Source of the DNA: Microcaldota archaeon
GTDB taxonomy: Archaea; Micrarchaeota; Micrarchaeia; Anstonellales; Anstonellaceae
DNA: 40,734 nucleotides
NCBI GenBank assembly: GCA_026414325.1
Contig: JAOAJF010000001.1
Coordinates: forward strand, 100,090 to 140,823
Direction: 5' to 3'
The notes below the pieces were generated by a model that made no database searches, was not told the DNA's origin, and was given only the letters and a program-made list of their open reading frames with translations. Every line of letters starts with the position of its first letter. The first letter of the stretch is position 1. Shown one piece after another: positions 14,512-39,627 of the stretch. The translations under genes were made by a program, and so were the position numbers.

Positions 14512-15420
14512 ATGTCTACAGGCAAATGCCCAGAATGTGGAAGCAAAAAAGTAATTAAAGATTTTGCCAGAGGAGAAATAGTTTGTGGCTCCTGTGGGAT
14601 TGTAATAGAAGAAAACATAGAAGATCACAGGCCTGAATGGAGGTCTTTTGACTCAGAGCAAAGAGAGAAAAGAGCTAGGGGAGGAGCACCAATAAAATAC
14701 ATGAGACCAAATAAAGGTTTAGTTACTGAAATCGATCAGTACAATAGAGATATTAGAGGAGCAAAAATTTCTCCAAAAAAACAAGCACAACTTTATAGAA
14801 TGAGAAAATGGCATAAAAGAGCTTCTATTGCATCTTCTATGGAGAGAAATCTAGCAATTGCTCTATCAGAACTAGATAGAATTGCTTCTTATTTAGGTTT
14901 ACCTGATTCAGTTAGAGAGTCAGCAGCTCTTTTATACAGAAGATGTATAAAGGCGGAATTAATTCGAGGTAGACTGATAGAATCGGTTGTTGCTGCTGTA
15001 ATATATGCAACTTGTAGAATGCAAGGCAATCCAAGAACATTAGAAGAATTATCAAAAGTTTCTGGTATTGAAAAAAAGGAAATCGGTCGAGCTTATCGTT
15101 TTATTAGACGAGAGTTAAGCCTAGATATTCCTCTAACAGATCCTTCTCAATATGTTCCAAAATTTACTGCTGCTTTAAAACTTTCTGGGCAGGTGCAGGA
15201 GAAAGCAATAAAACTTCTACGAAAAGCAATAGGAAAAGGTTTAATTTCAGGAAGAGGTCCAACTGGAGTTGCAGCAGCTGCAGTTTACATTGCTTCAGCA
15301 ATGTGTAATGAGAGAAGAACACAAAAAGAAGTTGCTGATGTTGCAGGTGTAACTGAAGTAACTATTAGAAATCGATATAGAGAACTAAAAAAAGAGCTTG
15401 GTCTAAAGATAGCCCTTTAG
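14512..15420 (+). CDS. tfb: Transcription initiation factor IIB (TFB)
   Basis: Zn ribbon 'CPECGSKKVIKDFARGEIVCGSCGIVI', B-reader region 'EWRSFDSEQREKRARGGAP', two cyclin repeats; RBS GAGGTG. Confidence 0.97.
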   Translation: MSTGKCPECGSKKVIKDFARGEIVCGSCGIVIEENIEDHRPEWRSFDSEQREKRARGGAPIKYMRPNKGLVTEIDQYNRDIRGAKISPKKQAQLYRMRKWHKRASIASSMERNLAIALSELDRIASYLGLPDSVRESAALLYRRCIKAELIRGRLIESVVAAVIYATCRMQGNPRTLEELSKVSGIEKKEIGRAYRFIRRELSLDIPLTDPSQYVPKFTAALKLSGQVQEKAIKLLRKAIGKGLISGRGPTGVAAAAVYIASAMCNERRTQKEVADVAGVTEVTIRNRYRELKKELGLKIAL

Positions 15421-35081: not shown

Positions 35082-35858
35082 TCATTCCACCAATTTTTTA
35101 GCAATCTGATTTATTTCCTGCCAATTTAGCATAAATACTTTTTTATCATAATTTTTAAATTTTTTTAATTTTTCCCCAACTTCTTCTTTTGTCCAACCAA
35201 AGAAATGTCTTGAGCGTTTTATAGCATTTTTTACATCTGCTAATCTGTGGGCAAATAATGCAGCTGAAACTAATTCAAAATTTTTAGAAAGTTTTGGAGT
35301 TTTTTTTCTTTTGAGCATAATTATCTGCGAATCTACTTTGGGTTTAGGATAGAAATTTTCTTTTGATACTTGTGCAATTTGCTCAATATCAAAATAAGCC
35401 TGAGCTAGTGCACTAATTCGACCATATTCTGAGGTAGCTGGAGGTGCTGCTAGACGTTGGCAAAATTCTTTTTGCATCATTAAAATTGCTTTTTCAAACT
35501 CTATTTTGCGCAATTTTAAAATAATCTTACTGCTTATGTTGTATGGAACATTGCCAATAATTATATCAATTTTTTTTATATCTAAGTTTAAAAAATCCTC
35601 ATTTACTATTTCAAGTCTTCCCTGGCTAATTTCATTTTTAAATTTTTTTTCTAATTGATAGCAAAGCTCTCTATCTATTTCTATAGCTAGTACTTTTTTT
35701 GGTCTTTGTTCTAAAAGCTTTTTAGTAAGTCTTCCATCCCCAGCCCCGATCTCAAGAACTTCTTTATTGGCTAAATTTGTTATTTTTGCTTCTAGCTCTA
35801 AAACATCCTCGTTCTTTAAAAAATGTTGTCCAAAAATTTTAGTTTTTTTTGTCTTCAT
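35082..35858 (-). CDS. ksgA: 16S rRNA dimethyladenosine transferase
   Basis: 'FGQHFLKNEDVLELEAKI', 'VLEIGAGDGRLTKKLLEQ', 'IIIGNVPYNISSKIILKL', 'MMQKEFCQRLAAPPATSEYGRISALAQAYFDIE'. Confidence 0.95.
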   Translation of the reverse strand: MKTKKTKIFGQHFLKNEDVLELEAKITNLANKEVLEIGAGDGRLTKKLLEQRPKKVLAIEIDRELCYQLEKKFKNEISQGRLEIVNEDFLNLDIKKIDIIIGNVPYNISSKIILKLRKIEFEKAILMMQKEFCQRLAAPPATSEYGRISALAQAYFDIEQIAQVSKENFYPKPKVDSQIIMLKRKKTPKLSKNFELVSAALFAHRLADVKNAIKRSRHFFGWTKEEVGEKLKKFKNYDKKVFMLNWQEINQIAKKLVE

Positions 35859-36427
35859 CCTCTATCCTTAAATTGGATTTTTTTTGGTTTTACAAATAAA
35901 TAGTTTTTTTCATTCCCTTCGATTTCTTTTACTATTCGATTTACAATCATCATTGCTGGATCTGGCAAAAAACTTATTCTTCTTTTTATGTCCTCGTAGC
36001 TTTCAAAAGGCTTTTTTTCTCTTTCTTCTAAAATCTGATTTAGGTGTTTTTTTCCTATCCCTTGTAAAAATTCCAGTTGGTGCAATCTAATTGAGAGTGG
36101 GCCGGCTTTATTATAAAAATTTACAAAGTCTTTTTCTCTAAATTCCACTATCTTTTTTAATGTTGGTTCTAATTCAGCTTTTGCTGTTGAGGTCAACTCA
36201 TTATAATCTATTCTTCTTTTTATTTTTTCAATTTCATTTCTTTGATTTTTTCCAACATATACTCTTGAGCCAAATTTTAATTCAACATTTTGCTTGGCAA
36301 TTCCCTCTAATAATATAAAATATTTTTCTCCTACTAACTGAACAAGCCTTTCTTTGTTTTTTTGATCGGCTTTTCCATAGGGTAAAAAATCAATAACCCA
36401 ACCCCACTCCTCTTTTTCTTCCTCCAT
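35855..36427 (-). CDS. DUF655-family HhH nucleic-acid-binding protein
   Basis: 'WGWVIDFLPYGKADQ', 'LEFLQGIGKKHLNQILEEREKKPFESYEDIKRRI'. Confidence 0.88.
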   Translation of the reverse strand: MEEEKEEWGWVIDFLPYGKADQKNKERLVQLVGEKYFILLEGIAKQNVELKFGSRVYVGKNQRNEIEKIKRRIDYNELTSTAKAELEPTLKKIVEFREKDFVNFYNKAGPLSIRLHQLEFLQGIGKKHLNQILEEREKKPFESYEDIKRRISFLPDPAMMIVNRIVKEIEGNEKNYLFVKPKKIQFKDRG

Positions 36428-36475: not shown

Positions 36476-36883
36476 CTATTCCTTTTTGTCTTTAGCTTCC
36501 TTTTTTTCTTTTTCTTTTTCTTCTGAAGAAGAAGAGTATCTAGCCTTATCCTCGTATTCTTTTACATATTTCATTATTTGTTCTATTTTTGAATCATCCA
36601 AAATTATTTTGTCTTTTGCCAATATCAATAAAAGAGTTTCTTTAAACTTTGGCAAGATATCAGCTATTTTAATAGCTGTTTCTAAATTCATACCTTCAAT
36701 TTCTAATAATTTTTCAATAAGCTCCTGGCTTTGTTTTTTATTTAATTTTTTAAATTTTTCAACATAGGAGAGAGTGGTTTGCTGTTCATAACCTATTTCA
36801 GACTCCTGAAGCCTTTGTTGCATTATTTCATAAACTTCTGCTAAAGTAATAGGTTTTATCTCTAATTCTTTTCTTCCAACCAT
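36476..36883 (-). CDS. rpoF: DNA-directed RNA polymerase subunit F (Rpb4)
   Basis: 'KPITLAEVYEIMQQRLQESEIGYEQQTTLSYVEKFKKLNKKQSQELIEKLLEIEGMNLETAIKIADILPKFKETLLLILAKD'. Confidence 0.87.
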   Translation of the reverse strand: MVGRKELEIKPITLAEVYEIMQQRLQESEIGYEQQTTLSYVEKFKKLNKKQSQELIEKLLEIEGMNLETAIKIADILPKFKETLLLILAKDKIILDDSKIEQIMKYVKEYEDKARYSSSSEEKEKEKKEAKDKKE

Positions 36884-36894
36884 CTAACCCACCT

Positions 36895-37173
36895 TTATAC
36901 TTCCTTTATATGCTCGCAATTTGCAATTATTATCTTGTTTTTTTCCCCATCTTTTATCTCTATCTCGTATGCTTTTCCCTTTTTTCCAATAATTTTTCCC
37001 ACTCTTCCTTTATATTTTGGATGGGGCATCCCAGCAGGATAACGAGGATGAGGAACTATTGCGACCTTTTGGCCAATCTCGTATTTTTTAACCAATACGC
37101 TTGCTGTTAGCTTTAGGGCATTGTTACCAACCTTTCTAGTTCTTTTTGACATTTTTCCCTTTGACCTTTTCAT
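36895..37173 (-). CDS. rpl21e: Ribosomal protein L21e
   Basis: 'MKRSKGKMSKRTRKVGNNALKLTASVLVKKYEIGQKVAIVPHPRYPAGMPHPKYKGRVGKIIGKKGKAYEIEI'. Confidence 0.93.
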   Translation of the reverse strand: MKRSKGKMSKRTRKVGNNALKLTASVLVKKYEIGQKVAIVPHPRYPAGMPHPKYKGRVGKIIGKKGKAYEIEIKDGEKNKIIIANCEHIKEV

Positions 37174-37319: not shown

Positions 37320-37610
37320 ATGGCAATTGTTATAAAACCAACATTTAGAATAGAAAATATCGTTGCTTCAGCAGATTTAAATTTAGAATTAGATCTTTAT
37401 TCTATCTCTTTTAAGGTTTATGATGTAGAATATGAACCAGAGCAATTTCCAGGAGCAATCTTTAAACTCAAAGAGCCAAAATCTTCCCTACTATTGTTTA
37501 AAAATGGAAAAATAATTTGCACTGGCTGTAAATCAGAAAAAGAAGTAGAACTAGCTCTAAAAAAGACAGCTCAAATTCTAAAACCCTTTGCTTCCAAGAA
37601 GGAGGACTAA
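37320..37610 (+). CDS. TATA-binding protein-like, single-repeat (half-length TBP)
   Basis: 96 aa: MAIVIKPTFRIENIVASADLNLELDLYSISFKVYDVEYEPEQFPGAIFKLKEPKSSLLLFKNGKIICTGCKSEKEVELALKKTAQILKPFASKKED. Matches one complete TBP repeat and ends in a clean TAA. Confidence 0.88.
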   Translation: MAIVIKPTFRIENIVASADLNLELDLYSISFKVYDVEYEPEQFPGAIFKLKEPKSSLLLFKNGKIICTGCKSEKEVELALKKTAQILKPFASKKED

Positions 37611-37611
37611 A

Positions 37612-38244
37612 ATGCCAAATCCTTTATTATTAGATTTTGTTGGACTTACCCTAGCTATACTTTTTGGTTTAATTGTTTTGATTTTTGGCTCAACTAATTT
37701 CTTCATAATTTTTCTAATTTTTTTAGTCTTGTCAGTAGCTGTAACCAGATATGGCTCTAAAAAAAAGAGAGAAAATGCTTTGTATGAGCATGAGAGAAGT
37801 TGGGAAAATGTTCTTTCAAACGGCTTAGTTCCAACCTCTATTGTGTTTTTACCTTACTTTGGGCTAAATCCAATAGGTGCTTATATTGGTTCAGTTGCAG
37901 CAATAACTGCTGATAAATTTGCCTCAGAACTTGGTGTATTGGGCCCTCCTCCAATAGACCTAGCAACTTTAAAAAAGGCGAGGAACGGTCAGAGTGGCTG
38001 TATTTCTTCTTTTGGAACATTTATGTCTTTTGTAGGAGCTTTAATTATAGGCTTATTTGCACATTTTTTATTTTTTGATTTAATTGGGCCTTGGAAGATT
38101 TTCACCATAGCTTTTATTGGTTTGTTTGGTTCTTTGGCTGATTCCCTAGCAGGAGTTTTAGAAGAGAAAGGAATAGGAAATAAGTCTACTTCTAATTTGG
38201 TCTGCTCTTTGGTTGGAGCAATCTTAGGTTTAGCTTTTATATAA
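37612..38244 (+). CDS. DUF92/TMEM19-like integral membrane protein
   Basis: 'IGAYIGSVAAITADKFASELGVLGPPPIDLATLKKARNGQSGCISSFGTFMSFVGALIIGL...DSLAGVLEEKGIGNKSTSNLVCSLVGAILG'; SD AAGGAGG at the end of the preceding ORF. Confidence 0.85.
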   Translation: MPNPLLLDFVGLTLAILFGLIVLIFGSTNFFIIFLIFLVLSVAVTRYGSKKKRENALYEHERSWENVLSNGLVPTSIVFLPYFGLNPIGAYIGSVAAITADKFASELGVLGPPPIDLATLKKARNGQSGCISSFGTFMSFVGALIIGLFAHFLFFDLIGPWKIFTIAFIGLFGSLADSLAGVLEEKGIGNKSTSNLVCSLVGAILGLAFI

Positions 38245-38307: not shown

Positions 38308-39627
38308 ATGTATTTTCAAGAAAAAAATAAAGAAAAACAAGTTGTAACTCCAGGCCCTTACATCCCATCTATCTCAGGGGAAGCATTTGATAACTTTAAG
38401 AAAGAATCAGAAATATATAAGGGTTCAAATCTTAATCTTTCGCTTACACAAATTCAGAATTGGGTAAATCTGATTTATTCTTCTGCTGATCTTCTAAATA
38501 CTTATAGTCTTCTAAATACTTATAGTCTTGATAAATTATATAATTTTCCTATTGGCAGCGCTGAACTTGTATTAAAATGGTTTTCAAGTAAAAATTATCT
38601 ACCAGGTCTAGTTTTTTTTTCAAATTTTGTTGGTGTAATAAGAAATGAGAATGATTTATCCAAGTTAGCTGATATATATGGGAAATTAGTACGGGAAGAG
38701 TTAGGTTTCATTTTATCATCCATTTTAAAAAATGAGCAAAACTTTTTACAAGAAAAATTTTTACAAGAAAAAAATAAGCTAATTGATACATTCTTAAAGT
38801 ATGGGTATATTAGTAGAAAAGATACTCAACATTTTAATAAGATAAAAGAAGAATTAGAAAGATCGACACCCAATTTAAAATTTTTAATTACTGAAAACGC
38901 AATCATTCTTCCTCTACCGAAACTTTCTAATAATCAAGTTACTGAGTCATTAACTATCGAATTGGATCTATCTAAAGAAACTGATATCAATTCTTTTATA
39001 AATCTAATAAAATCTTATAACGAGGTTAAGATCGTATTTGCGGGTTTTTCACAGGATGAGGAGAAGAACCTGGTTGGTATATTCACTAATAAGTTAAAAT
39101 CATCAAATTTCTATCGTTCGGAATATACCCCATCTTCTCATGAGCTTATTATAAAATTTAAAAATGAAAAGGAAAGTTCAAATTCTGCAATAATAACAAT
39201 AAAAGAGAAAATCCCACTTGACGCAATTGTTCACAAAAAACAAGAAGACACTTCTGATAAAAATGTTGATAAAGAAAAACCCCAGAGTGCTATCGCTGGG
39301 GAATCTAAAGAAAATAAACAAAAAGAACAACCAAAAATAGAGAAAAAAGAACAACCAACAGTGAAAAAAGAAGAGAAAAAAGAACAACCAACAGTGAAAA
39401 AAGAAGAGAAAAAAGAAGAATTGCCTGATACTTATGAAGAGCTTAAAACGAAAATTCTATCAAAAATAGAAAATGAATCCATCTCATTTTCTTATGATGA
39501 TTTAAAGAAGTCGCTCCTTAATTGGGGCATTTATAGTGATTTCATAATTTTTCTAAATAAAAATGGGATCAAATACGAAATAAATAAAGAAAATGGTACA
39601 ATTATTTTTTTCAAAAACAAAAAATAA
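38308..39627 (+). CDS. Large unknown protein with Lys/Glu-rich linker and several in-frame tandem duplications
   Basis: 439 aa continuous ORF; no recognised family; low-complexity 'KKEQPTVKKEEKKEQPTVKKEEKKEELP' then a C-terminal domain 'TYEELKTKILSKIENESISFSYDDLKKSLLNWGIYSDFIIFLNKNGIKYEINKENGTIIFFKNKK'. Confidence 0.75.
   Translation: MYFQEKNKEKQVVTPGPYIPSISGEAFDNFKKESEIYKGSNLNLSLTQIQNWVNLIYSSADLLNTYSLLNTYSLDKLYNFPIGSAELVLKWFSSKNYLPGLVFFSNFVGVIRNENDLSKLADIYGKLVREELGFILSSILKNEQNFLQEKFLQEKNKLIDTFLKYGYISRKDTQHFNKIKEELERSTPNLKFLITENAIILPLPKLSNNQVTESLTIELDLSKETDINSFINLIKSYNEVKIVFAGFSQDEEKNLVGIFTNKLKSSNFYRSEYTPSSHELIIKFKNEKESSNSAIITIKEKIPLDAIVHKKQEDTSDKNVDKEKPQSAIAGESKENKQKEQPKIEKKEQPTVKKEEKKEQPTVKKEEKKEELPDTYEELKTKILSKIENESISFSYDDLKKSLLNWGIYSDFIIFLNKNGIKYEINKENGTIIFFKNKK
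38491..38526. repeat. 18-bp exact tandem duplication (cttctaaatacttatagt x2) encoding LLNTYS x2
   Basis: Read directly at 38491-38508 and 38509-38526. Confidence 0.95.
38743..38772. repeat. 15-bp exact tandem duplication (tttttacaagaaaaa x2) encoding FLQEK x2
   Basis: Read directly at 38743-38757 and 38758-38772. Confidence 0.93.
39340..39405. repeat. 33-bp exact tandem duplication (gagaaaaaagaacaaccaacagtgaaaaaagaa x2) encoding EKKEQPTVKKE x2
   Basis: Read directly at 39340-39372 and 39373-39405, followed by a partial third unit. Confidence 0.93.

Follow-up and report, generated by a model that had tools for sequence, protein, structure and literature searches.

The TATA-binding protein (TBP), which marks the starts of genes, is usually described, in archaea and eukaryotes alike, as an internally duplicated saddle. 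In solved TBPs each lobe forms one half of the saddle about a dyad and carries two Phe which kink the DNA, and the DNA-contact roles of this Phe pair and of a central Asn/Val in each lobe are known from the same structures. The stretch of DNA analysed here (the window, 40,734 nucleotides of a Microcaldota archaeon contig) holds an open reading frame (ORF) in which one such lobe is found, and this raises the question whether an archaeon lives with half a TBP, or whether the other half disappeared during assembly. The genes concerned are the following.

14512..15420, + strand: TFB, 302 aa, two cyclin repeats (ORF; PF00382 twice)
35855..36427, - strand: DUF655 protein (PF04919; synteny)
36476..36883, - strand: Rpb4-like RNA polymerase subunit (PF03874; synteny)
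36895..37173, - strand: ribosomal protein L21e, conserved divergent neighbour (PF01157; synteny)
37320..37610, + strand: single-lobe TBP, 96 aa (PF00352 once, the sole match in the assembly; AlphaFold2 model; TBP matches in the PDB)
37612..38244, + strand: DUF92 membrane protein, the next gene after TBP (PF01940)

As the assembled sequence stands, the ORF is confirmed as a half-length TBP. The first-pass annotation had described a 96-aa ORF with one TBP repeat ending in TAA (37608-37610) and a DUF92-like gene 2 nt downstream, and both points hold: PF00352 matches in one stretch (residues 9-89, profile positions 2-84 of 85) with 100.1 bits and E=6.4e-29 (curated cut-off 22.9 bits), no other domain was found in the Pfam search, and the DUF92 gene starts at 37612. 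With one stretch and 96 aa the ORF falls short of the two lobes and ~180 aa of a canonical archaeal TBP, and with the full-length TBP models of NCBIfam it scores up to 92.6 bits versus a cut-off of 270. Both equivalent Phe, F43 (in QFPG) and F60 (in LLLFKNGK), are retained as had been claimed, and are, together with N13, V15 and G63, invariant across 59 Micrarchaeota repeats. With these 59 repeats as input alignment, AlphaFold2 predicts a complete lobe (mean pLDDT 95.3) which superposes on solved TBPs at ~0.9 A over 84-85 residues, and the Foldseek search against the PDB returned, at E <= 0.001, TBPs exclusively, alone or within complexes. The ORF also carries two signatures, FPGA and FKNG, which are found in 158/159 and 156/159 Micrarchaeota repeats, respectively, while both are missing from all eight canonical lobes tested.

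The window belongs to an assembly (G000) of 798,445 bases in 62 contigs, 84.1% complete, in which the ORF is the sole PF00352 match. A search for a second lobe, using a two-lobe relative as query and E up to 10, returned only the window ORF. In this assembly, in which a collapse is possible, the TBP ORF has a single lobe and a two-lobe form is absent, and the earlier option of the ORF being a paralogue of a normal TBP is left unsupported, as the assembly contains no other TBP. This genome and 13 others have a normal TFB carrying two cyclin repeats. Downstream of the DUF92 gene, a 439-aa ORF (38308-39627) without Pfam match at E <= 0.01 contains an exact tandem repeat of 46 bp (at 39339 and 39372), which encodes a lysine/glutamate-rich stretch, and beyond this ORF a further uncharacterised ORF runs to the contig end.

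A survey of 303 Micrarchaeota genomes gave a TBP match in 287, and outside the order of the window the TBP loci were examined in 55 genomes representing 16 other families of the class. The native TBP ORFs have one lobe each in 55/55 of these, so that half-length relatives of the window ORF are indeed present, and a phylum of single lobes departs from the usual description of TBP. G123, assembled as one contig of 771 kb, has one half-TBP copy, four other single-contig genomes (G190, G246, G258 and G263) have two copies separated by hundreds of kilobases on the linear coordinates, and G089 (2 contigs) has three half-TBP genes. Since single-contig genomes and unlinked copies are among these, assembly collapse is excluded as the cause of the phylum trait: the half-length TBP of Micrarchaeota is a genuine trait on the scale of the phylum. 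Its occurrence in every sampled genome of the other families implies that one lobe per gene is sufficient for life, the half-TBP presumably acting as a dimer. Many of the single-lobe genes, those of closed genomes included, adjoin L21e, Rpb4 or DUF655, which makes them likely orthologues sharing one locus. Two lobes in one ORF were seen in just one of the 55 genomes, G255. The Micrarchaeota signatures are missing from this TBP (L081, contig C43, 1207-1761), and its contig is probably of foreign origin (contamination or transfer); the genome has two half-TBPs as well. Two clades of half-TBP copies, A and B, are found in family f21 and in part of f20, and B is set apart at a support of 100. Pairs of A and B paralogues are seen in G190 (L088/L108), G246 (L103/L125), G258 (L096/L134) and G263 (L094/L137), and may constitute an obligate heterodimer or alternative dimers. 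In the near-complete genome G089 two of the three half-TBPs (L061, L111, L112) are nearly identical in the lobe. G124, with one half-TBP, has a second TFB-like gene (G124:C3:462822-463433), a 480-aa open frame with two PF00382 repeats.

The order to which the window belongs (84 Micrarchaeota genomes, 81 with a TBP match) does not follow this rule. Apart from the window ORF, which is the lone single-lobe case in the 84 genomes, all whole TBPs combine two lobes in a single ORF, which measures ~185-265 codons between stops. G016 and G080, considered as additional single-lobe cases, were rejected, their genes being cut by contig ends, and the TBP of G052 is broken over two contigs. The tandem relatives G002, G003, G010, G012 and G014 show 74-80% identity to the window ORF, the gene order KsgA-DUF655-Rpb4-L21e-TBP is kept in the nearest genera, and DUF92 is found downstream of TBP in G003 too. 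The TBP of LFW-29, a genome assigned to Ca. Anstonellaceae by its authors (PMC8561730), closely resembles the TBPs of the window's family, which makes Anstonellales the probable name of the order. The first-pass annotation had named full-length TBP at this locus in all close relatives as an argument against its reading, and such a TBP is what every relative with a whole gene possesses. The objection thus stands in part, and both a recent loss and a collapse in assembly have to be considered.

The two TBP lobes are 46-80% identical within the order (medians of 73%, 62.5% and 52% in families f1, f7 and f8, respectively), compared to 40-54% in three solved archaeal TBPs, and both lobes carry the FPGA and FKNG signatures. 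In a phylogeny with the lobes as separate tips (38 Micrarchaeota lobes together with 12 canonical N and C lobes), all Micrarchaeota lobes split from all canonical ones (99/94), and N and C lobes from one genome pair together in f2 (99/93), f10 (97/78) and f11 (84/89), although the alignment has 86 columns and many forks are weakly resolved. AU tests rejected a grouping of the order's N lobes with canonical N (p=0.004) and of its C lobes with canonical C (p=0.006). Monophyly of the order's N lobes was marginally rejected (p=0.047), whereas that of its C lobes (p=0.10) and that of the canonical N lobes (p=0.365) was not. These rejections and the signatures in both lobes argue that the tandem TBP of the order is not a simple heir of the ancient N/C duplication. 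Judged from the lobe sequences, a new duplication of half-TBP with later homogenisation would explain it best, a possible alternative being an inherited tandem that was homogenised here and lost elsewhere. At the DNA level the N and C cores match exactly over 89 bp in G002, 85 bp in G038, 79 bp in G004 and 60 bp in G020. In LFW-29 a contig end and a contig start lie inside TBP with an exact 101-bp overlap, which is the pattern of an unresolved tandem core, and G052 breaks inside a TBP core with 69 bp of identity to the other one. Within the TBP genes L013, L022, L028, L017 and L036/L038, the lobes match each other exactly over 60-101 bp of DNA. Concerted evolution inside an essential gene is the likely picture, presumably by gene conversion.

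Set against these tandem relatives, the window ORF divides into three parts.

37338..37475, + strand: mostly N-lobe-like part, residues 7-52 (N-like at 20, 22, 31, 34; C-like at 21, 23)
37425..37556, + strand: core near-identical between the lobes of relatives, residues 36-79, containing the join (exact matches; LFW-29; G052)
37557..37592, + strand: C-lobe-like end, residues 80-91 (C-like at 80, 84, 86; majority at 89-91)

The assignment relies on ten lobe-specific positions, at which, in the five nearest genomes, N lobes and C lobes have no residue in common; the ORF is N-like at 20, 22, 31 and 34, C-like at 21, 23, 80, 84 and 86, and neither at 88. By its residues it is an N/C chimera joined in the shared core, and the frame is intact across the join. 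As its N-like states at 22, 31 and 34 and its C-like state at 84 differ from those of the single-lobe outgroups, the ORF appears to stem from an already diverged tandem gene, and as the lobe-specific residues are still sharp, any loss of a lobe would be recent. The suggested likeness to the ancestor of TBP before its duplication therefore holds only as an analogy of form, the protein having an N-lobe start and a C-lobe end.

We give about an even chance to the ORF being a genuine single-lobe TBP, working as a homodimer, that arose through in-frame loss of one tandem unit. The lobes of the order's tandem TBP being kept near-identical, recombination inside the shared core could have removed one unit in frame, which would be a return to the single-lobe state of the rest of the phylum. 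On this reading the half-TBP would dimerise and bend DNA, and the deletion would have taken place in the living cell rather than during assembly. Counting against a real loss are the two lobes of all other whole TBPs in the 84 genomes, the position of the join exactly within the core that confuses assemblers, and the absence from the window assembly (396 kb examined) of any exact direct repeat longer than 77 bp.

The same points lend weight to the main competing explanation, to which we assign a probability somewhat short of even, namely that a short-read assembler merged a two-lobe TBP and dropped a unit of ~280 bp in frame. The longest direct repeat, of 77 bp, is located at a contig end, which suggests a final k-mer of 77, and cores identical over that length would knot; exact stretches of 79-101 bp are present in the lobe cores of relatives, and the contigs of LFW-29 and G052 do break inside the core. 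The chimera is what a collapse is expected to produce, yet it is equally predicted by deletion of a unit in the cell, and the lack of a second such case in the order would also suit an artefact. However, knots mostly break contigs, whereas this TBP lies within a contig of 141 kb, at a distance of 3 kb from the contig end. Both lobes were correctly assembled in relatives whose cores agree exactly over 79-89 bp, so such identity is usually no cause of collapse, and no leftover lobe fragment is present in the bin, even if short contigs are normally dropped. Contig breaks in TBP affect ~4/85 genomes of the order, which is within chance given the contig counts, and LFW-29 and G052 are the only ones among them with sequence evidence of a knot.

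The gene might also be split, with the other lobe encoded separately, in the 16% of the genome that is missing, and the two forming a heterodimer, as is possible in f20/f21. The 84.1% completeness leaves room for this, and f21 and some of f20 usually have unlinked A and B paralogues, but we regard it as very improbable: the permissive search gave no second lobe in G000, the order has no split arrangements except via contig ends, and a clean split would not yield an N/C chimera. Equally slight is the chance that the genus retained the phylum's single lobe and at no time possessed a tandem, since, even with a single lobe as the rule in other families and many forks left open by short alignments, the trees place the ORF within the family, next to the N-lobes of its nearest genera (85; 88/50), and its lobe-specific states (22, 31, 34 and 84), absent from the single-lobe outgroups, disfavour it.

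The window case is thus undecided, as the data agree about equally well with a true recent loss and with a collapse in assembly (the likelihoods expressed for these two are judgements, made without computation), while the half-TBP trait is real in the phylum. If the loss of one unit was genuine, two identical lobes would pair about a dyad to give the usual saddle, now symmetric, which would bend the TATA element with two Phe pairs; as the TFB has its normal pair of cyclin repeats, direction would be set by TFB and its upstream element (BRE). A half-TBP that would need to dimerise, in line with the homodimer suggested by the first-pass annotation, is well supported for the phylum, but less so for a genome whose relatives are two-lobed. 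For the TATA-like motif of G123, with its one half-TBP, a palindrome fits like the free model (2dlnL 10, 12 extra parameters), but it does so also in G246, which has A and B (7.5), and in the tandem genome G006 (16.4), and hence does not discriminate. In the AT-rich genome of the window the TATA-like motif shows no palindrome fit (31.7, p=0.0015).

Lobe number of TBP may be fluid altogether, with a phylum relying on homodimeric or heterodimeric half-TBPs, an independent re-duplication with gene conversion in this order and a reversion to one homodimeric lobe in the window genome, a scenario to which we attach rather less than an even chance. If true, living organisms both repeat and reverse the founding duplication of TBP. 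Single lobes and a seemingly remade tandem make the idea of a homodimeric ancestor testable with living proteins, and raise the questions of how promoter direction is obtained from a symmetric saddle, whether TFB alone provides polarity, and what is gained from lobe fusion. They also carry a warning, as short-read assembly can merge or break tandem TBPs with near-identical lobes.

TBP has been treated as the product of a single duplication, with evolutionary indicators derived from its two repeats (Adachi et al. 2016, PMC4910066). No description of a single-lobe TBP in Micrarchaeota was found in the literature, subscription papers being mostly outside the search, and two genome papers on this group, PMC8561730 being one, contain no mention of TBP. 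Nor did the literature searched yield an earlier report of the half-TBP distribution, the apparent re-duplication or its possible reversal. Archaeal TBPs with one lobe per protein, as in the window ORF, are mentioned in passing by Ravarani 2020, citing Brindefalk 2013, in one Methods sentence which, in the part of the paper available to us, comes without distribution, genome context or tandem relatives (PMC7221094).

Among known systems, the N-terminal domain of RNase HIII / DUF3378 (PF11858) resembles the window ORF in being a single TBP-fold that acts on nucleic acid (PMC7221094). In that case the TBP-like domain is fused to a nuclease, whereas the window ORF has no PF11858 match and no further domain. 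The tandem TBP of the window's order is found at the same locus with the same signatures, but with two lobes in one ORF. Canonical archaeal TBP (2z8u of M. jannaschii, 1mp9 of S. acidocaldarius, 1pcz/1ais/1d3u of P. woesei) has the same fold in each lobe and the same DNA-contact residues per lobe, with 41-47% identity to the window ORF over one lobe, and works with TFB, a partner present in the window genome too. It differs in having two lobes per chain where the window ORF has one, and in lacking, in its lobes, the FPGA and FKNG of the latter.
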